This document shows, one piece after another, positions 43,348-52,664 of a DNA stretch of 64,000 bases. Position numbers and translations under genes: made by a program. Source of the DNA: Pleurocapsa minor GSE-CHR-MK 17-07R (GTDB lineage Bacteria > Chloroflexota > Anaerolineae > Aggregatilineales > Phototrophicaceae); assembly GCA_019359125.1 (NCBI GenBank), contig JAHHHY010000001.1, forward strand, positions 1 to 64,000. Reading direction: 5' to 3'. The notes below the pieces were generated by a model. That model was not told where the DNA came from and made no database searches. It was given only the letters and a program-made list of their open reading frames with translations. The stretch's first letter is position 1. The number at the start of each line of letters is the position of its first letter.

Positions 43348-44784
43348 ATGTGGCAGTCATACTACAGTGTCACTTCTCTTGCAGAAGCTGCCGACCTGCT
43401 GGCAAAGTACGGCGATAAAGCGCGCATCATCGCAGGGGGCACCGACCTGCTGATTGAGCTGGAGCGCGGGCAGCGTCCGCATCTGGAAGCGATCATCGAT
43501 ATTTCGCGTGTGCCCGGCCTCGCTGACATCACCATCGAAGGCGACGATATCGTGATGGGGCCGCTGGTGCTGCATAATCACATCGTCGAATCTGCCCTGC
43601 TGCATGAGGCGGCTCTGCCGCTGGCACAGGCCTGCTGGGAGGTGGGTGCGCCGCAAATCCGTAACCGTGCCACGCTGGCCGGCAACCTGATCACCGCATC
43701 ACCAGCCAATGACACCATCAGCCCGTTCATGACGCTGGATACACGCGTGACGCTGCTGTCTGCGTCGGGCACACGCACGGTTCCGCTGTCTGAGTTCTAT
43801 ACCGGCCTGCGCAGGACCGTCATGCGCCCGGACGAAGTGCTCAGCGCAGTGCGCATCCGCAAAATGGGCGCGAACGAACGGGGCATCTTCATCAAGCTCG
43901 GCCTGCGCCGGGCCCAGGCTATCAGCGTGATTAACGTGACTGCTGTCATCGGCTTTGCTGACGATGGTGAGACGATTCGCACGGCTGCGCTGGCATTGGG
44001 CTGCGTCGCCCCGACGATTATCCGCCTGCCTGAGGTGGAAGCCTCGCTGGTCGGCCAGCGCCTGACGCCGGAGGTCATTCGGGCTGCGGCACAGGCGGCA
44101 GCGGCGGTGCCCACGCCGATCGACGATGTGCGCGGTTCGGCGGAATATCGCGTGGAGATGATCCGCGTGCTGGTGTCCCGTGCGCTGAAAGCGATTGCTG
44201 CTGGTGAGCAGGCCAATGCGTTCCCGCAGCACCCGCCGCTGCTGTGGGGCGATCTGGCCGGTCAGCCCGCCGATGGACTGGCGCACATGGCGATGCACGA
44301 CGCCAGCGCGCCCATTGTCACGCATATCAATGGGCAGGAACGTGTGATTTCGACCGGCCAGAGCAAAACGCTGCTGCGCCTCCTGCGCGAAGACGCTGGC
44401 TTGCCGGGCACAAAAGAGGGCTGTGCCGAAGGTGAATGTGGCGCATGCACCGTGTTTCTCGATGGCGCGGCGGTGATGGCGTGCATGGTGCCTGCGCCAC
44501 GCGCACACGGCGCCTCGATTGTCACCGTAGAGGGGCTGAAATCAGAAGATGCGCTGCATCCCTTGCAGCAGGCATTTGTCGATCATGCGGCTGTCCAGTG
44601 TGGCTACTGCACGCCCGGATTCATTATGGCTGGCGCGAAGCTGCTGGAGGAAATCCCTCAGCCGACGCGGGCCCAGGCTGAACAAAGCATCACCGGTAAC
44701 CTGTGCCGCTGCACCGGTTACTATAAAATCGTCGACGCGTTATTGGATGCTGCCGCGCGCAGCGCTAAAGGGGAACATGCATGA
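43348..44784 (+). CDS. Molybdenum hydroxylase FAD/2Fe-2S fusion subunit
   Basis: This combines two of the three subunits of a xanthine dehydrogenase-type enzyme. Residues about 1-290 form the FAD domain, with IIAGGTDLLIELERG and the conserved GAPQIRNRATLAGNL. Residues from about 324 hold a 2Fe-2S domain with CAEGECGAC and CGYCTPG...CRC, the plant-type and helical clusters. The FAD part is first and the iron-sulfur part last, the reverse of animal XDH. The next gene overlaps by 4 bases. Confidence 0.9.
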   Translation: MWQSYYSVTSLAEAADLLAKYGDKARIIAGGTDLLIELERGQRPHLEAIIDISRVPGLADITIEGDDIVMGPLVLHNHIVESALLHEAALPLAQACWEVGAPQIRNRATLAGNLITASPANDTISPFMTLDTRVTLLSASGTRTVPLSEFYTGLRRTVMRPDEVLSAVRIRKMGANERGIFIKLGLRRAQAISVINVTAVIGFADDGETIRTAALALGCVAPTIIRLPEVEASLVGQRLTPEVIRAAAQAAAAVPTPIDDVRGSAEYRVEMIRVLVSRALKAIAAGEQANAFPQHPPLLWGDLAGQPADGLAHMAMHDASAPIVTHINGQERVISTGQSKTLLRLLREDAGLPGTKEGCAEGECGACTVFLDGAAVMACMVPAPRAHGASIVTVEGLKSEDALHPLQQAFVDHAAVQCGYCTPGFIMAGAKLLEEIPQPTRAQAEQSITGNLCRCTGYYKIVDALLDAAARSAKGEHA

Positions 44785-45164
44785 CCAGCCAGGTTACGAT
44801 TGCCGAGAAGAAAAAGAGCCGTCGCTTTTTGCCCGTTGCGGGCTTCATCATGATTGTGGTGCTGGCCGCCATTGCGTATCTGGTGGCGCCCGCGGTCATG
44901 GACTGGACGCGCGCCAATCTGCGCGGATTTACATTCAGCGGCAATGACCGCGAAACCGTGCGCCTGATGTTCGCGGGCATCATTTTCCTCACGCTGGGCG
45001 GCATTTCGGCCATGATTGTCGCGCTGTTTGCGCCCAAGAAAGCCACCAACATCAAGGACAGTGACCTGATGGAAGAACGCAAGGCGATGCAGGACAAGAA
45101 AAAGATGGACCGCCTGCGCCAGCGCAAGGTCAACCGTGAGATGCGCCAGGTTAAAAAGGGCTAA
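44781..45164 (+). CDS. Small two-helix membrane protein of the hydroxylase operon
   Basis: Two hydrophobic helices (about residues 17-37 and 68-88) flank a short polar stretch, and the C-terminal part (about 89-127) is Lys/Arg-rich and probably a cytoplasmic coiled coil. I recognise no family. It overlaps the end of the FAD/2Fe-2S gene (ATGA) and lies 18 bases before the DUF6909-like gene, so it belongs to this operon. It could anchor the enzyme or a partner at the membrane. Confidence 0.7.
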   Translation: MTSQVTIAEKKKSRRFLPVAGFIMIVVLAAIAYLVAPAVMDWTRANLRGFTFSGNDRETVRLMFAGIIFLTLGGISAMIVALFAPKKATNIKDSDLMEERKAMQDKKKMDRLRQRKVNREMRQVKKG

Positions 45165-45182: not shown

Positions 45183-46991
45183 ATGGATCGTACAGTGCCC
45201 AAGACAGGCAGCGAAGATATCGAGCTGTACATGCGGACGTATTACTCGCTGCTGCGCTCCAGCCAGACGTTTCAACTGGAGACGCTGGTAGAGGCGCACA
45301 TGGCGATGGAATCGTCGCTGCATGTGAAGGCGCGCCTGCCCGTGCCGGATATTTCGGCGCTGATTTACAGCACGCTGCGCCTGCCTGCCTGCATGGTCGA
45401 TGTGACCAGCGTGGTGCTGGGGCAGATTGAAAAATCGTTCACGGATGCCAGCTATGCCGTCAATGAATGGGAGCGTGTGACTGCCCCCGGTCGGCGTCGC
45501 CGTATGCATTTCGATGGCACAGGCACGCTGGCGGTGTTCATCGCCAGTCGGTCTGACATTGATGACCTGATTCCTATGCTGACGGCCTATCAGATCGAGT
45601 GGAACAAGGTACATGTGCTGCTTCAGGGGCCGGTGGCGCGGCTGTTTCTGGCCCAGCATGGCGAGCGCACCGAGCCGCTGAGTATGGCCGAGCGCAGCCT
45701 GCTGGCAACCGCCTTGCAGACCGATGAAGAAGACCTGCGCCGCCTGGAATCCATCTGGGGCGACCGCTTCATCGCGGTGCTGAGCAAGATGGGCGCACGG
45801 CGCAAGCAGATCGGCCTGAAGCAGACGGCCGGTTCGGTGGCAGATTATCGCCGTGCGACGGCCCACTGGTGGGACGATATCAGCATACATCTCAAACAGC
45901 AGACCTCGCCGGTGATTGACCTGGAGGACCGGCCGGTCTATTTCATCAGCAGCAATACGCATTCGCTGGTAAACCTGCTGACGGGCTTTGCCTTGCGCGA
46001 GGAACGCAACCTGATCGACTATATGGAGTCGAAAGGGCACGAGGCGCTGATTGCCGAATACCGCCAGGTGCTTTCGGACGAAGGCGCGACGCACAAGAAC
46101 AACTTCCTGTACTACGTGCAGAAGAAGTATCTCTCGGATGGCGACGCGGCTGTGCGCCGCCGTGCCCGCGATGTCGAGCGCGAGCTGAATATTCAGCGCA
46201 TCCCCAGCAAGCATGGCAGCGACCTGGAGACGCAGATTATCGAGCTGCGCCGCCTGAAATCCGACTGGATCGACCCGCGCCTGATGCCAGGCGTGAATCC
46301 GATGCTGTTCGCCAATTCAGACGCCGTGATCGTCAATGTGGATTACCCGCTGGGGCTGGCGGCCTATGAGCTGCTGGCGCGCCTGTCCGAGCGAGCGGCC
46401 CTGCTGGGTGTGTATGTGATGGGCAAGGCCGCCACGCTGAATGGACGCATCGGCGATGTGATGATTTCCAACGTCGTGCATGACGAGCATTCGCAGAATA
46501 CCTACATGTTCCAGAACTGTTTCGCCGCTTCTGACGTGGCGCCACACCTGACCTACAGCATGGTGCTGGACAACCAGAAGGCGATCAGCGCGCCGGGGAC
46601 ATTCCTGCAGAATCCGCGCTATATGGACGTGTTTTACCGCGAAGGCTATACCGTCATCGAGATGGAAGCCGGCCCGTATCTGTCAGCGGTGTACGAGGCC
46701 ACGCGCCCGAAGCGCCATCCGCAGAACGAAATTGTCAACCTGTATGCCGCGCCGTTCGACGTGGGCTTCCTGCATTACGCGTCGGATACCCCTTTCACCA
46801 AGGGGCATAATCTGGGCGCCAGCAACCTCAGTTATGCGGGCATCGACCCGACCTATGCGTCGACCGTGGCGATCATGCGCCGGATTCTTGAGCGCGATAT
46901 GACCCGCCTGAAACCCGTGCTGGATGTCCATCATTTCGCGCAGGCGGAACCTGCTGATGCCGAGACTGCGCTGAACGGAACTGTATCGTAG
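45183..46991 (+). CDS. Nucleoside phosphorylase-like protein of unknown function (DUF6909-like)
   Basis: Residues about 1-370 are an uncharacterised domain; from about 377 (SDAVIVNVDYPLGLAAYELL) the sequence looks like a nucleoside phosphorylase-like fold, with VVHDEHSQNTYMFQNCF and, near residues 493-495, IEMEAGPYLSAVYE. The Glu-Met-Glu pattern is where PNP/UDP phosphorylases bind ribose. I believe this is the family catalogued as DUF6909, but I cannot verify it. It lies between the FAD/2Fe-2S and the Mo-subunit genes, which suggests purine metabolism. Whether it is a phosphorylase is not shown. Confidence 0.72.
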   Translation: MDRTVPKTGSEDIELYMRTYYSLLRSSQTFQLETLVEAHMAMESSLHVKARLPVPDISALIYSTLRLPACMVDVTSVVLGQIEKSFTDASYAVNEWERVTAPGRRRRMHFDGTGTLAVFIASRSDIDDLIPMLTAYQIEWNKVHVLLQGPVARLFLAQHGERTEPLSMAERSLLATALQTDEEDLRRLESIWGDRFIAVLSKMGARRKQIGLKQTAGSVADYRRATAHWWDDISIHLKQQTSPVIDLEDRPVYFISSNTHSLVNLLTGFALREERNLIDYMESKGHEALIAEYRQVLSDEGATHKNNFLYYVQKKYLSDGDAAVRRRARDVERELNIQRIPSKHGSDLETQIIELRRLKSDWIDPRLMPGVNPMLFANSDAVIVNVDYPLGLAAYELLARLSERAALLGVYVMGKAATLNGRIGDVMISNVVHDEHSQNTYMFQNCFAASDVAPHLTYSMVLDNQKAISAPGTFLQNPRYMDVFYREGYTVIEMEAGPYLSAVYEATRPKRHPQNEIVNLYAAPFDVGFLHYASDTPFTKGHNLGASNLSYAGIDPTYASTVAIMRRILERDMTRLKPVLDVHHFAQAEPADAETALNGTVS

Positions 46992-47012
46992 CCAAACAAG
47001 TGATTGACTGAC

Positions 47013-49244
47013 ATGACGAAAAAAGACCAGATTGCAATTGGCCACAGCGTGAAGCGGCTGGATGGCGTCGGCAAAGTGACCGGCGAGTCGCCGTATCCGG
47101 GCGATATTGACCTGCCGGGCCAGTTGTGGATGAAGATCCGCTTCAGTGATCGTGCCCATGCCTGCATCCGTGCCATCGATACGACGGAAGCGGCAGCCAT
47201 GCCCGGCGTGGTGCGCGTCTTCACGGCGGCGGATGTGCCTGTGAATGAATACGGCCTGGTGTGGAAAGATCAGCCGGTGTTGTGCGGGCCGGGCAGCGAC
47301 AAACCGGGCGCCGATATCGTGCGCTGCTACATGGACATGGTGGGGCTGGTGGTGGCCGAGACGGAAGCGCAGGCTGCCGCTGCCGCAGCGCGCATTCACA
47401 TCGACTATGAAGACCTGCCCGCCGTGTTTGATATGGACGCCGCGATGCAGGACGGTGCGCCGCAGATTCATCCCCAGTGCGAACAGAACATCATGGCGCA
47501 TTACCGGATTCGCCTCGGCGACATGGATGCGGGCTGGGCGCAGGCCGATGTCGTGGTCGAGGGTGAATTCGATACCGGCTATCAGGAACATGCCTATTTG
47601 CAGCCTGAGGCTGGCCTCGGCTACATCGATGAGCTGGACCGCGTGACGGTCATCGTTGCCGGGCAGTGGGTGCATGAAGACCAGGATCTGATCGCGCATG
47701 CGCTGGCGCTGCCGCCCGAACAGGTGCGCGTGGTCTATCCGGCGATTGGCGGCGCGTTCGGCGGTCGTGAAGACATGTCGGTGCAGATCGTGCTGGCTTT
47801 GGCCGCACATGTGCTGCGCCGTCCGGTCAAGATCGTGTGGAGCCGCGAGGAATCGATCCAGTATCACCACAAGCGCCATCCGGTGCGCATTCATGCCAAA
47901 TGGGGCGCGACCTCCGATGGGCAGATTGTGGCCTGCGAGGCGACGGTGACGGGCGATGCCGGGCCGTATAACTACACCTCGACCAAGGTGATGGGCAATG
48001 CCTCGCTCATGGCGACCGGCCCGTATGTGATTCCCAACTGCCATATCGACACCCTCGCTGTGGCCACCAATAACATCTGCACGGGGGCGTTTCGAGGCTT
48101 TGGCGCGCCACAGGCTGCCTTTGCCGCTGAGGGCATGATCAATCGGCTCGCCGACGCGCTGGGCATGGACCCGATTTCGCTGCGGCTGAAGAACAGCATC
48201 CGCGAAGGCAGCATCATCTCGGTCGGGACGCCGCTGCCTAAGGGCGTCAGCATGCCGCAGGTGATCGAAGCCTGCGCCCGCGAGTCGTTCTGGCAGCAGA
48301 CCGGCGATGGGGATAGCTGGTCGCGCAAGGCGATCAGCCAGCCGGCCAATCCGTCGCTGCGCCGTGGCGTCGGCTTTGGCTGTGGATTCAAGAATGTCGG
48401 TTTCAGCTTTGGCTTTCCAGAGCAAAGCTGGGCCACGGTCGAGCTGTATGGCGACGCTGAAATTCAGGAAGTCGTCGTGCGCCATGCCGGGGCAGAGGTC
48501 GGCCAGGGCACGCACACCGTCATGCGCCAGATGACCGCCGAAGCGGTGGGCGTCCCGCTGGAGAAGGTGCGGCTGATCGGGCACGACACCGCCGAGACGC
48601 ACACGTCCGGCAGCGCGTCGGCCTCGCGCATGACCTTCATGGCGGGCAATGCGATCGTGGGTGCGGCAGAACGGGCGCTGGCGCAGTGGCACGCCGAGGA
48701 ACGCCCGGCCAAAGCGACTTTCCAGTATCGTCCGCCGCGCACGACCATGTATGACCCGACCACCGGCAAGAGCGAACCAAATTTCGCCTATGGCTATGTG
48801 GCCCAGGGTGTCGAAGTGGAAGTGGACATCGACACCGGTTTCGTCAATGTGCTGCGCGTGATTTGTGCCGACGATGTCGGCCATGCCATTAATCCTCAGC
48901 TGGTGCAGGGGCAGGTGGAAGGCGCTGTCGTGCAGGCGCTAGGCTATGCCGTGATGGAAAACCTGATCTCGCGCGACGGCAAAATTCGCAATCCGTATTT
49001 ATCGACCTATCTGATTCCCACGGTGCTGGATGTGCCCATCGAGGTGAAGTCGGTCATCCTGGAGTACCCGGACCCGATTGGCCCGTTTGGCGCACGCGGC
49101 ATGGCCGAAATGCCGTTTATCCCGCTGGCCCCGGCGATTGCCGCGGCTGTGCATGATGCCACCGGCGTGTGGCTGGACGAACTGCCGATGATTCCGGAGC
49201 GCGTGGTGAGGAAACTGAGGGCGCATGGCATTGGCGGCATTTAG
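47013..49244 (+). CDS. Molybdenum hydroxylase molybdopterin-binding subunit (xanthine dehydrogenase family)
   Basis: The large Mo subunit has the expected blocks: SVKRLDGVGKVTGESPY, the Mo-proximal GGAFGGRED, TGAFRGFGAPQAAF, and the C-terminal GARGMAEMP with the catalytic Glu. The 743 aa length is usual. ATG 47013 is chosen over TTG 47004. My hand alignment places Glu in the bovine Glu802 position but Asn near Arg880, so purine specificity is not settled. The gene overlaps yqeB by 20 bases. With YqeB and YqeC it is probably a selenium-dependent hydroxylase, which would carry a labile Se at the Mo. Confidence 0.9.
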   Translation: MTKKDQIAIGHSVKRLDGVGKVTGESPYPGDIDLPGQLWMKIRFSDRAHACIRAIDTTEAAAMPGVVRVFTAADVPVNEYGLVWKDQPVLCGPGSDKPGADIVRCYMDMVGLVVAETEAQAAAAAARIHIDYEDLPAVFDMDAAMQDGAPQIHPQCEQNIMAHYRIRLGDMDAGWAQADVVVEGEFDTGYQEHAYLQPEAGLGYIDELDRVTVIVAGQWVHEDQDLIAHALALPPEQVRVVYPAIGGAFGGREDMSVQIVLALAAHVLRRPVKIVWSREESIQYHHKRHPVRIHAKWGATSDGQIVACEATVTGDAGPYNYTSTKVMGNASLMATGPYVIPNCHIDTLAVATNNICTGAFRGFGAPQAAFAAEGMINRLADALGMDPISLRLKNSIREGSIISVGTPLPKGVSMPQVIEACARESFWQQTGDGDSWSRKAISQPANPSLRRGVGFGCGFKNVGFSFGFPEQSWATVELYGDAEIQEVVVRHAGAEVGQGTHTVMRQMTAEAVGVPLEKVRLIGHDTAETHTSGSASASRMTFMAGNAIVGAAERALAQWHAEERPAKATFQYRPPRTTMYDPTTGKSEPNFAYGYVAQGVEVEVDIDTGFVNVLRVICADDVGHAINPQLVQGQVEGAVVQALGYAVMENLISRDGKIRNPYLSTYLIPTVLDVPIEVKSVILEYPDPIGPFGARGMAEMPFIPLAPAIAAAVHDATGVWLDELPMIPERVVRKLRAHGIGGI

Positions 49245-50046
49245 CTGGAAGACGATTCCACGGGCGGTGGTGCTGGGCGGGGGCGACCTGGCCAGCGGCG
49301 TGATTCTGCGCCTGCACCGCGCCGGCTTTCATGTGGTCGTGCTGGAGCTGGCCACGCCGCTGCTGGTGCGCCGGGCAGTCAGCTTTGGCGATGCCGTGTT
49401 TTCGGGCGAGCGCACGGTCGAGGGCGTGGTTGCGCGTTCGGTCGGCTTTTATGGCGTGGATGCTGCGCTGCGCGCCGGTGAAGTCCCGGTGGTGGTCGAT
49501 CCGAACGGCATGGCGATGACGCATCTGCATCCCGATGTGCTGGTGGATGCGCGCATGGAGAAGCGCAACCTGGGCATCACCCTGAAAAGCGCGCCGGTTG
49601 TGATCGCGCTTGGGCCGGGTTTCACGGCCGGGCAGGACTGCCATGCGGTCATCGAGACCAACCGCGGCCATAATCTGGGCCGGGCGATTTATGCGGGCCC
49701 GGCCGAGCCGGACACGGGGGAGCCGGGCAGCATCGGCAGTCAGACGCATTCGCGGGTGCTGCGTGCCCCGGCAGATGGCTTCGTGCTGCCGCAGGCCGAC
49801 ATCGGCGATCTGATTCCTGAGGGAGCGGTCATCGCCACCGTGGACGGACAGCCGATCAGGGCCGCATTCACCGGCACCTTGCGCGGCATCATCCATGAAA
49901 GCGTGCCGGTGAAAGCGGGCATGAAGGTGGGCGACCTGGACCCGCGTGCGAAACGCGAGCACTGCTTCAGCATCTCCGACAAATCACTCGCGGTGGGCGG
50001 CGGCGCGCTGGAAGCGGCGCTGTTTCTGCTGCATCAGCTGAAGTGA
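49225..50046 (+). CDS. yqeB: Selenium-dependent molybdenum hydroxylase system protein YqeB
   Basis: YqeB proteins accompany YqeC and the selenium-dependent hydroxylases and are thought to help make or insert the Se-Mo site. The N-terminus has AVVLGGGDLASGVILRLHRAGFHVVVLE, a Rossmann-like start. Length is normal at 273 aa. It begins inside the end of the Mo-subunit gene (20-base overlap) and overlaps the YqeC gene by 4 bases (GTGA), so translation is coupled. The precise biochemical step is not established for the family. Confidence 0.85.
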   Translation: MALAAFSWKTIPRAVVLGGGDLASGVILRLHRAGFHVVVLELATPLLVRRAVSFGDAVFSGERTVEGVVARSVGFYGVDAALRAGEVPVVVDPNGMAMTHLHPDVLVDARMEKRNLGITLKSAPVVIALGPGFTAGQDCHAVIETNRGHNLGRAIYAGPAEPDTGEPGSIGSQTHSRVLRAPADGFVLPQADIGDLIPEGAVIATVDGQPIRAAFTGTLRGIIHESVPVKAGMKVGDLDPRAKREHCFSISDKSLAVGGGALEAALFLLHQLK

Positions 50047-51401
50047 AGCTGGCCGACGCATTTGCCGTTCGCCGTGGCGACGTGGTGTCGTTTGTCGGCG
50101 CGGGCGGCAAGACCAGCACCCTGCTGGCCCTGGGCAAAGAACTTGCGGACGCGGGCTGGCGGGTGCTGGCCACCACCACCACACGCCTCGCGGCCGACCA
50201 ACTGAATCTGTTCCCCGAAGCACTGCCAGCCGATGTGCCACGCGCCAGCCTGGTCCGTGCGCTGGACGAAAAGCGGTTCATCTGTCTGTATCACGACATC
50301 GAGCAGGGCAAGGCGCTGGGCATCCCGCCTGAGCTGGTGAGCCAGTTTCTGGATGATGCTGATGCAGACGTTATGCTGGTGGAGGCGGACGGCGCCCGCG
50401 GCCTGCACTTCAAAGCGCCGCGCCTGCACGAGCCGGTCATCCCGGCCGAGACCACGCTGGCGGTGCCCACGGTGTCGATTGGGGTGCTGGGCCAGCCCTT
50501 GAATGAGGCGCATGTCATGGGCGCAGGCCTGATACATGACGCGTTTGGTTTTCCGCTGGACGAGCCGGTCAAGTCGCCGTGGGTGGCGCAGGTGCTGCGC
50601 GATCCGGCCTTCGGGCTGAAGGGCGTTCCGCCAGGTGCGCGGGTTGTCGGCTGGGTTAATCAGGTCCCGCCCACGGGCTATATGCTTGGCCGTGCGCGCA
50701 TGATCGCCAGCCTGATGCTGCGCCAGCCTCGCATCAGCGCGGCCGCGTTTGGCAGTGCCCAGGCACCCAATCCTGTCCATGAAGCGCGCTCACGCGTCGG
50801 CGCGGTGATTCTGGCGGCGGGTATGAGCACGCGCATGCAGGGCGAGATGAAGGTGCTGCTGCCGTGGCAGGGCCAGCGCACCATCCTGGAGCATCTGATT
50901 CAGCGGCTGTATGATGCCAAAGTGGATGACGTGGTGGTCGTGACCGGCCATCGCGCGCCTGAAGTGAAAGCTGCCGCCGAGCGCATGGGCGCACGGGTGA
51001 CGCATAACCCGCGCTATGCCAGCGGCGAAATGCTGTCGTCACTTCAGGCGGGGCTATCTGCTTTGGGGGCAGGGGTGTCGGCCGCGATGGTTGTGCTGGG
51101 CGATCAGCCGCGCCTGAATCCGCCCATCCTCAGGCAGGTCATGGAGACCTATTTCGGCGGCAGCGCGCTGATCGTTGCACCCAGCTACCAGCACCGTCGC
51201 GGCCATCCCATCCTGATTGATCGCCGTCTGTGGCCGGAGCTGCTGGCCCTGCCAGACGGATCCGCCCCGCGTGACGTGATAAACCGCCACGCGGATCAGA
51301 CCGCGTATGTGGTGACGACAGATGATGGGGTGGTCAATGATGTGGATACCCCGCAGGCTTATCGCGAGGAGCGCCGTCGTGCAGGGCTGGGGGATGGCTG
51401 A
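50043..51401 (+). CDS. YqeC-MocA fusion: selenium cofactor factor and molybdopterin cytidylyltransferase-like protein
   Basis: Residues about 1-245 are YqeC, with FVGAGGKTSTLLALG, a P-loop-like nucleotide-binding motif, then VLATTTTRL. From about residue 252 (VGAVILAAGMSTRM) a nucleotidyltransferase domain of the MocA/YgfJ type follows, with GDQPRLNPPIL in the middle. In E. coli yqeC and mocA (ygfJ) are separate genes. A fusion implies that the two steps work on the same cofactor. The start is GTG in a 4-base overlap with yqeB. Confidence 0.87.
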   Translation: MKLADAFAVRRGDVVSFVGAGGKTSTLLALGKELADAGWRVLATTTTRLAADQLNLFPEALPADVPRASLVRALDEKRFICLYHDIEQGKALGIPPELVSQFLDDADADVMLVEADGARGLHFKAPRLHEPVIPAETTLAVPTVSIGVLGQPLNEAHVMGAGLIHDAFGFPLDEPVKSPWVAQVLRDPAFGLKGVPPGARVVGWVNQVPPTGYMLGRARMIASLMLRQPRISAAAFGSAQAPNPVHEARSRVGAVILAAGMSTRMQGEMKVLLPWQGQRTILEHLIQRLYDAKVDDVVVVTGHRAPEVKAAAERMGARVTHNPRYASGEMLSSLQAGLSALGAGVSAAMVVLGDQPRLNPPILRQVMETYFGGSALIVAPSYQHRRGHPILIDRRLWPELLALPDGSAPRDVINRHADQTAYVVTTDDGVVNDVDTPQAYREERRRAGLGDG

Positions 51402-51754: not shown

Positions 51755-51782
51755 TTTGTGGCAAAAGGCGGCGCGCTATAAT
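51755..51782 (+). promoter_or_regulatory. Promoter before punA
   Basis: TATAAT (51777-51782) is perfect and sits in GCGCGCTATAATG, with a weak TTTGTG 16 bases upstream. The GTG start is at 51819. Confidence 0.45.
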
Positions 51783-51818
51783 GAAAGGCCTGTGCAAGGA
51801 TCCACCGGAGAGACCAAC

Positions 51819-52664
51819 GTGACCGAACAAAGCCCGTATGAAGCCGCCGCAGCCGCCATTCGCACTTTCACATCGCAGTCTGTTCAGGTCGGTCTTGTGC
51901 TGGGCAGCGGATTAGGCGGCCTGGCCGACACGGTTGAAAACGCGGTCAGCATCCCCTATAGCGAGATTCCGGGGTTCCCGGTGTCGACCGTGCACGGGCA
52001 TCGCGGCGAGCTTGTGATTGGCCAGCTGGAGGGCTGCGGTGTGGCCGTACAGCGCGGACGGGCGCACTTTTATGAGGGCTATACGCCGCAGCAGGTGGTC
52101 TTTCCCATTCGCGTGATGAAATATCTGGGCGCACAGACCGTCATCCTGACCAACGCGGCGGGCGGTGTGAACAAGCAGTTTCGGGTGGGCGATATCATGA
52201 TCATGAACGACCACATCAATTTTGTCGGGCTGGCGGGACACAATCCGCTGGTGGGCCCGAACGATGACAGCCTGGGCACGCGCTTCCCCGGTATGTCGCA
52301 GGCCTATGACCGGGTCCTGCGCGCTGTGGCGCGTGCTGCGGCCGTCGATGCTGGTGTGCCGTTCCACGAAGGCGCATACTGCTGCGTCAGCGGGCCTATG
52401 TTTGAATCGCCCGCCGAGATCCGGATGCTGCGCACGATTGGCGCCGATGCGGTGGGCATGTCCACGGTACACGAGGCGATCGCGGCGCGTCATGCCGGCA
52501 TACGCGTGCTGGCGATGTCTGGCATCACCAATGAATGTATCGACCAGGTCGATACCACCATGGATGCCAATCACGAAGAAGTTCTGGAAGCGGGTGTGAT
52601 GATCGTGCCGCGCATGACCGCGTTGATTCGCGGCGCGCTGCGCGGCATTGCTGCAGGCAAATAG
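51819..52664 (+). CDS. punA: Purine nucleoside phosphorylase
   Basis: The enzyme splits inosine or guanosine with phosphate to base and ribose 1-phosphate. The trimeric PNP family blocks are present: GLVLGSGLGGLAD, HGHRGELVIG, LTNAAGGVN, GPMFESPAEIRML and SGITN. The Asn in SGITN (about residue 238, matching Asn243 of the bovine enzyme) favours 6-oxopurines, since methylthioadenosine phosphorylases have Asp there. GTG 51819 has a CCGGAG site; the longer frame to 51756 has little support. Its place beside the hydroxylase genes suggests the product base is then oxidised. Confidence 0.93.
   Translation: MTEQSPYEAAAAAIRTFTSQSVQVGLVLGSGLGGLADTVENAVSIPYSEIPGFPVSTVHGHRGELVIGQLEGCGVAVQRGRAHFYEGYTPQQVVFPIRVMKYLGAQTVILTNAAGGVNKQFRVGDIMIMNDHINFVGLAGHNPLVGPNDDSLGTRFPGMSQAYDRVLRAVARAAAVDAGVPFHEGAYCCVSGPMFESPAEIRMLRTIGADAVGMSTVHEAIAARHAGIRVLAMSGITNECIDQVDTTMDANHEEVLEAGVMIVPRMTALIRGALRGIAAGK

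Follow-up and report, generated by a model that had tools for sequence, protein, structure and literature searches.

The closest described relatives of the family studied here are the nucleoside phosphorylases and nucleosidases of the NP-I superfamily. A report on E. coli PNP describes phosphate as bound by Arg24, Arg87 and Ser90 together with Arg43 of the neighbouring subunit, which also contributes His4, and has Asp204 protonating N7 (PMC6193948). For AMP nucleosidase (AMN), a second report names M404, E405 and D428 as the purine and ribose contacts, these being the residues conserved among its relatives, and has the 5'-phosphate stabilised by R381 and K436 with H188 and Y189 of another chain (PMC9584410). 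The Pfam family DUF6909 (PF21850), in comparison, is an entry without a function, and our search of a limited paper collection found nothing naming DUF6909 or PF21850, and nothing joining Chloroflexi, xanthine dehydrogenase, purine nucleoside phosphorylase and operon.

We computed the family membership, predicted fold, residue conservation and gene order of a DUF6909 protein encoded in the window (the whole 64,000-nucleotide stretch of DNA that was analysed). Its ORF runs on the forward strand from an ATG at 45183 to a stop at 46991 and encodes 602 aa. The protein matched PF21850 over residues 32-570 with 713.4 bits (1.9e-214), exceeding the Pfam gathering cut-off of 27 bits, and is a full-length member of that family; Pfam, AlphaFold2, Foldseek and VIA together mark it as a probable enzyme of the nucleoside phosphorylase/nucleosidase superfamily. 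The sequence-only reading had placed a gene here between the two subunit genes of a hydroxylase, and that gene is real: the translation contains both motifs it had quoted, VHDEHSQNTY and IEMEAGPYLSAVYE. A genome-contig collection contained 287 confirmed relatives, the best 80 of which were kept; nearly all of their named loci are labelled Chloroflexota, which we take as the phylum of the window. Of 201 genomes sampled from this phylum, 65 carried the family, 63 of them with a single match, and none of 14 control genomes did. The 287 relatives and the presence in 65/201 phylum genomes indicated that 45183-46991 is not a chance ORF.

The gene lies within a forward-strand operon for a molybdenum hydroxylase. 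Upstream are a fused FAD-binding and 2Fe-2S subunit gene (43348-44784, assigned by Pfam and NCBIfam) and, overlapping its 3' end by 4 bp, a small ORF (44781-45164) of 127 aa that looks membrane-like by eye and matched no Pfam family above cut-off. Gaps of 18 and 12 bp separate the DUF6909 gene from this small ORF and from the downstream gene for the molybdopterin-binding subunit (47004-49244, TTG start; Pfam and NCBIfam), respectively. Next come genes for a YqeB-type maturation protein (49225-50046; TIGR03309, 336.9 bits, above cut-off) and a fusion of YqeC (residues 15-159) with a MocA-type nucleotidyltransferase (residues 254-417; 50043-51401; Pfam and NCBIfam), in place of which some relatives had a shorter ORF. 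Further downstream is the gene of an ordinary class I purine nucleoside phosphorylase (51756-52664; NF006054, 353 bits, above cut-off). The locus had been described as a purine hydroxylase operon; molybdenum hydroxylase genes do flank DUF6909, but the purine label is unproven, as the Mo subunit was below the cut-offs of all 13 NCBIfam models listed for it (the best score being that of pucD, 551 bits against a cut-off of 783.65). The FAD/Fe-S subunit was likewise below its NCBIfam equivalog cut-off (310.3 bits vs 467).

Side observations were made on this operon and its relatives. The window's own genome had an above-cut-off selD match (G000:C22:304596-305531) with one in-frame TGA, as selenocysteine-carrying SelD proteins have; taken with the operon's YqeB and YqeC genes, it hints that the molybdenum hydroxylase may depend on selenium. 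At 28 loci of the operon clade DUF6909 was preceded by the small membrane-like protein (about 127 aa), and a different small membrane-like ORF occupied the same place at nine others, L066 included. Genes of F420 type (CofD-like, CofC-like and a luciferase-like oxidoreductase, assigned by eye) lay upstream of the operon at about 20 loci, among them L007, L036-L040 and L066.

Structure prediction supported the nucleoside phosphorylase-like fold that had been proposed from the letters. An AlphaFold2 model built from a 58-row family alignment had a pLDDT of 89.1 and a pTM of 0.87, and its comparison with the PDB by Foldseek gave 512 chains at E<=0.001. Every one of the 50 matches listed was an NP-I nucleoside phosphorylase or nucleosidase, AMP nucleosidase included. 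VIA gave Z>=8 for 668 of 999 chains, with Z of 15.4-16.1, rmsd of 2.7-3.4 A and 203-242 aligned residues among the 50 matches listed. MTAN and the DeoD-type PNP/uridine phosphorylase enzymes (class-II NP-I) shared the predicted fold at Z of about 15-16, and class I PNP enzymes were also among the structural matches; AMN was not among the 50 VIA matches listed for the whole model. DUF6909 is thus predicted to have the NP-I a/b fold, at an identity of about 7-13% in the structural alignments.

The sequence-only reading had also allotted about 370 residues to the N-terminal domain, a boundary that the model moved. The VIA-aligned span covered residues ~226-573, so the phosphorylase-like part begins near residue 226, and position 370 is, in the model, only the start of the motif-rich half of the fold. 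The model's secondary structure and the VIA range place b1-a1 at residues 251-267 (45933-45983), followed by a helical insert between a1 and b2 (residues 269-337; 45987-46193) and by the remainder of the fold (residues 338-573; 46194-46901, with hhalign positions 341-565). This insert and the extra N-terminal domain are among the features that distinguish DUF6909 from the class-II NP-I enzymes.

At the level of sequence, the superfamily link was much harder to detect. The PF01048 (PNP_UDP_1) model matched none of 58 DUF6909 members, even at E<=10, and DUF6909 is therefore a divergent branch that is not filed under PF01048. Sequence searches of the PDB gave nothing significant for the protein, comparison of five members one-to-one with E. 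coli AMN, MTAN, DeoD and Udp gave noise (best z 2.1 over 20 pairs), and hhalign of the 58-row alignment against the single E. coli AMN and MTAN sequences placed nothing in register. The detectable signal came from profile-profile comparison with 27 class-II NP-I sequences, in which 141 DUF6909 rows scored 39.3 over 208 columns (probability 47%). The controls were 100 column shuffles (at most 24.2) and 33 further ORF families of the DUF6909 loci (at most 29.3; 34 families minus neg17, which was the class I PNP cluster), some of the latter being spurious shadow ORFs and hence easy controls. Two of the 141 rows are distant homologues from Persicobacter (Bacteroidota), for which the best tblastn match had 24.5% identity over 93% cover (2e-17) and PF21850 gave 1.5e-64. 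The 139 rows without them scored 30.3 over 208 columns (maximum of 100 shuffles 27.0, reversed profile 14.2), and their removal left DUF6909 (30.1-30.8) level with an unrelated response-regulator family (30.5-30.7); the rise to 39.3 was traced to these two rows and not to the identity filter (100 vs 90). Scores against the AMN-only profile (20.5) and the class I PNP profile (24.8, level with unrelated families) were low; the class I PNP of the window, although of the same superfamily, is without the extra domain.

The same 141-row alignment bore out the suggestion that the Glu-Met-Glu motif matches the ribose-binding part of phosphorylases. It placed E493-M494-E495 (46659-46667) on the E-M-E of MTAN, which binds the ribose 2'- and 3'-hydroxyls, S534-D535 of S-D-T-P (534-537; 46782-46793) on the catalytic S-D, and G-K-A-A-T-L-N-G (414-421; 46422-46445) on G-S-A-G-G-L. 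The aligned MTAN residues are, we take it, the ribose-binding Glu174 and the catalytic Asp197. The two Persicobacter homologues, which are about 24% identical, share E495, Met494 and D535 (the last within Y-A-S-D-x-P) with at least 95% of the 139 other family sequences.

Altogether, 48 positions were common to at least 95% of the 139 sequences and both Persicobacter proteins. Those in the phosphorylase part include S256, N258, H260, N264, Y388, G391, G414, K415, G472-Q476 (without F474), E493-E495, S534, D535 and P537, all at loops that form NP-I active sites. Those in the N-terminal domain are R18, Y62, R66-P68, R104-R106, S124, D128, L133, E139 and K142, followed by W229, which both Persicobacter proteins also keep. 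The pair W229-W230 (45867-45872) was placed near the His4 position of E. coli PNP by structural-alignment end-points only.

The pocket for the nucleophile differs from that of the phosphorylases. In DeoD, GDPxR forms the phosphate/nucleophile loop; in DUF6909 the b1 loop is S-S-N-x-H, with S-S-N-T-H (256-260; 45948-45962) in the window protein appearing to replace it, and the b5 loop is V-M-G-K-A. Residues were mapped onto PNP and AMN numbering by hand, the b1 loop above all, and on this mapping the DeoD-type phosphate site (Arg24, Arg87, Ser90 and trans Arg43) is not retained in DUF6909: the arginines 24 and 87 of E. coli PNP have no counterpart, K415, which is conserved across all clades, replaces Ser90, and N258, H260 and K415 fill the region. 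Judged by these alignments, DUF6909 retains the purine and ribose residue set and not the phosphate set of PNP. The arginine loss would speak for hydrolysis, and K415 and H260 at the same place would still allow phosphate.

Based on the fold and these residues, we infer, with a probability of roughly 60%, that DUF6909 is a divergent NP-I enzyme cleaving purine nucleosides or nucleotides at the N-glycosidic bond. A point against this reading is that the window's own genome encodes three PF01048 proteins besides DUF6909, the class I PNP and two others, so that there is no evident gap at this step. By analogy with E. coli PNP, MTAN and AMN, E495 (with M494) would hold the ribose hydroxyls, D535 would donate a proton to N7 of the purine as it leaves, and C1' would be attacked by water or phosphate from the remodelled pocket of the S-S-N-x-H loop and K415. 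The 5' end may be bound by W229-W230 and the N-domain arginines R18, R66 and R104-106, an arrangement that would suit a phosphorylated substrate; we raise this idea because of the many conserved Arg and Lys residues and the AMN-like S-D-x-P.

The N-terminal domain (residues 1-225; 45183-45857) was modelled separately as residues 1-228 from 58 rows, with a pLDDT of 91.4 and a pTM of 0.89. Its elements (b1 76-80, a1 83-88, b2/b3 97-110, b4 115-119 and a2 123-147) follow the order b1-a1-b2-b3-b4-a2 of the first half of the NP-I fold. Foldseek gave no matches for this model at E<=0.001, with NP-I enzymes making up 49 of the 50 listed, and VIA similarly listed 49 NP-I enzymes of 50 at a best Z of just 4.2, where values below 8 may reflect a common arrangement; the two AMN chains listed were aligned via the AMN catalytic part. 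The model is consistent with the N-domain possibly being a degenerate half-copy of the phosphorylase fold, the resemblance being weak. Sequence comparison did not show the N-domain to be a detectable duplicate of the C-terminal domain, since the best alignment consisted of seven residues common to both pieces and was equalled in 8 of 60 shuffles; against the class-II sequences, 51 of 60 shuffles scored as high. R104-R106 (45492-45500), which at least 98% of the 139 family sequences retain, as do both Persicobacter homologues, lies between b2 and b3 of the model, and we dropped its equation with the trans Arg43 of E. coli PNP on the grounds that secondary structure puts RRR in the b2-b3 turn. 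We also entertained a bolder proposal, which we hold to be unlikely, of DUF6909 as a single-chain, double-domain version of the phosphorylase fold. The half-lost N-terminal copy would have become a permanent partner of the C-terminal copy and would complete its active site, replacing the subunit exchange by which PNP does so. In this proposal the substrate would be a phosphorylated purine nucleotide, and the phosphate pocket would differ from those of all known members.

Gene neighbourhoods were compared within 2.5 kb for a near set of 81 loci (the best 80 of 287 relatives and the window's own) and for 60 loci sampled across the phylum, two sets that share at least two identical proteins. At 42 of the 81 loci of the near set, DUF6909 was preceded by the FAD/Fe-S gene and followed by the Mo gene; eight had the FAD/Fe-S gene only, one the Mo gene only, 24 had neither and six were too short to tell. 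XDH genes thus flanked DUF6909 in 51/81 near relatives vs 1/60 of the loci sampled across the phylum (none at 51, too short at eight). In a FastTree tree, the XDH-link label needed five changes, where shuffled labels took about 40 on average. The 52 linked loci were all within one Anaerolineae-centred clade of 89 rows, so that one gain with later losses of the operon link is the simplest reading. One member of the Chloroflexota clade, L015, is a MAG contig labelled Bacteroidetes with a Chloroflexota-type operon; because it groups inside that clade, its label or bin is probably wrong.

The sequence-only reading would have been undone by homologs lying far from any purine gene, and a family-wide purine neighbourhood indeed did not hold outside this one clade. 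Among the neighbours looked at there, which varied (DNA methylase, LysR, cation efflux, glucan phosphorylase, hydrogenase protease), we saw no conserved purine neighbour; a phosphoribosyltransferase gene was present at at least three of the 60 phylum-sample loci. In the Anaerolineae-type clade, the gene would have been recruited into the molybdenum hydroxylase operon, and the base that it sets free might serve the hydroxylase as substrate. These distributions suggest that such a hand-over is a clade-specific use and not the defining role of the family.

The variety of neighbours also bears on what is cleaved. It is unlikely, in our estimate, that the fold and chemistry are as proposed with a non-purine or special substrate (methylthioadenosine/SAH, futalosine, 5'-deoxyadenosine, a modified nucleoside or a pyrimidine) and that the place in the Mo operon is incidental. 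Such a substrate would suit the mostly unrelated-to-purine neighbours looked at outside the operon clade, and likewise those of one of the two Persicobacter genes, which lie on large plasmids (L209:6935-8623 and L210:4350-6047), the first being located between genes for a SAM methyltransferase and a mechanosensitive channel. Against it, the conserved Asp of S-D is the residue that protonates N7 of purines, E. coli Udp having no S/G/T/A-D pair in its last third, and the Mo-hydroxylase link persists in relatives down to about 52% identity.

The idea that DUF6909 is a straightforward AMN homologue that replaces AMN in Chloroflexota draws on the two-domain layout, an extra N-terminal domain plus an NP-I domain, and on S-D-x-P, which a scan of the last third found in 6 of 27 class-II sequences, all six of AMN type, one from E. 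coli and five from the phylum (SDKP or SDQP in AMN-type sequences, SDTP or SDNP in DUF6909). It also agrees with the absence of AMN above the TIGR01717 cut-off from all 201 sampled genomes, 56 of which had sub-cut-off matches. The window's own genome had no TIGR01717 match at E<=0.001. We regard the idea as quite unlikely, as TIGR01717 did not match the DUF6909 protein at E<=0.1 (NCBIfam), the AMN-only profile score was low, and the phosphate-binding R381 and K436 and the trans H188-Y189 are not evidently kept. Of the sampled genomes, 14 had no TIGR01697 match, and by hand comparison DUF6909 was present in eight of these.

The position of the gene between two hydroxylase subunit genes, with the small membrane-like protein, YqeB and YqeC-MocA alongside, would also suit a protein without catalytic activity that has kept a nucleoside-binding fold and serves the molybdenum hydroxylase as sensor, scaffold or maturation factor, and the large conserved N-domain exceeds the needs of a minimal enzyme. 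We consider this improbable, because E495 and D535 are kept at catalytic positions across two phyla and because the two genes occur apart. Comparison by hand across the 201 genomes, with a close Mo-subunit orthologue defined at E<=1e-150, found DUF6909 in 16 of the 33 genomes with the orthologue and in 49 of the 168 without it; the 17/33 genomes with the orthologue and without DUF6909 led us to reject the idea that the hydroxylase requires DUF6909 as a component. A role in defence was likewise rejected within our search scope (the phylum genome sample, the best 80 of 287 relatives, and plasmid, phage and viral collections): there was no PADLOC match and no match to a phage record, PHROGs gave nothing above noise, and the viral contig collection gave no confirmed relative. 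It is highly improbable that the modelling has misled us about the phosphorylase fold and that DUF6909 is something else, since, for all that the sequence support is weak and hinges on two distant sequences, model confidence is high, the matches number in the hundreds with those listed belonging to one superfamily, and the catalytic motifs are in register.

Based on its predicted fold and key catalytic residues, DUF6909 is probably a new branch of the nucleoside-cleaving enzyme group. The assignment of DUF6909 as an NP-I enzyme that cleaves purine nucleosides or nucleotides provides a function that can be tested, residue by named residue, for a family present in 65 of the 201 phylum genomes sampled, nearly always as a single gene, and in Bacteroidota. 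If true, it would add to the superfamily a branch whose nucleophile pocket and extra domain are unlike those of the solved members compared, and would suggest that Anaerolineae-type bacteria link a molybdenum hydroxylase to a purine step not yet described.
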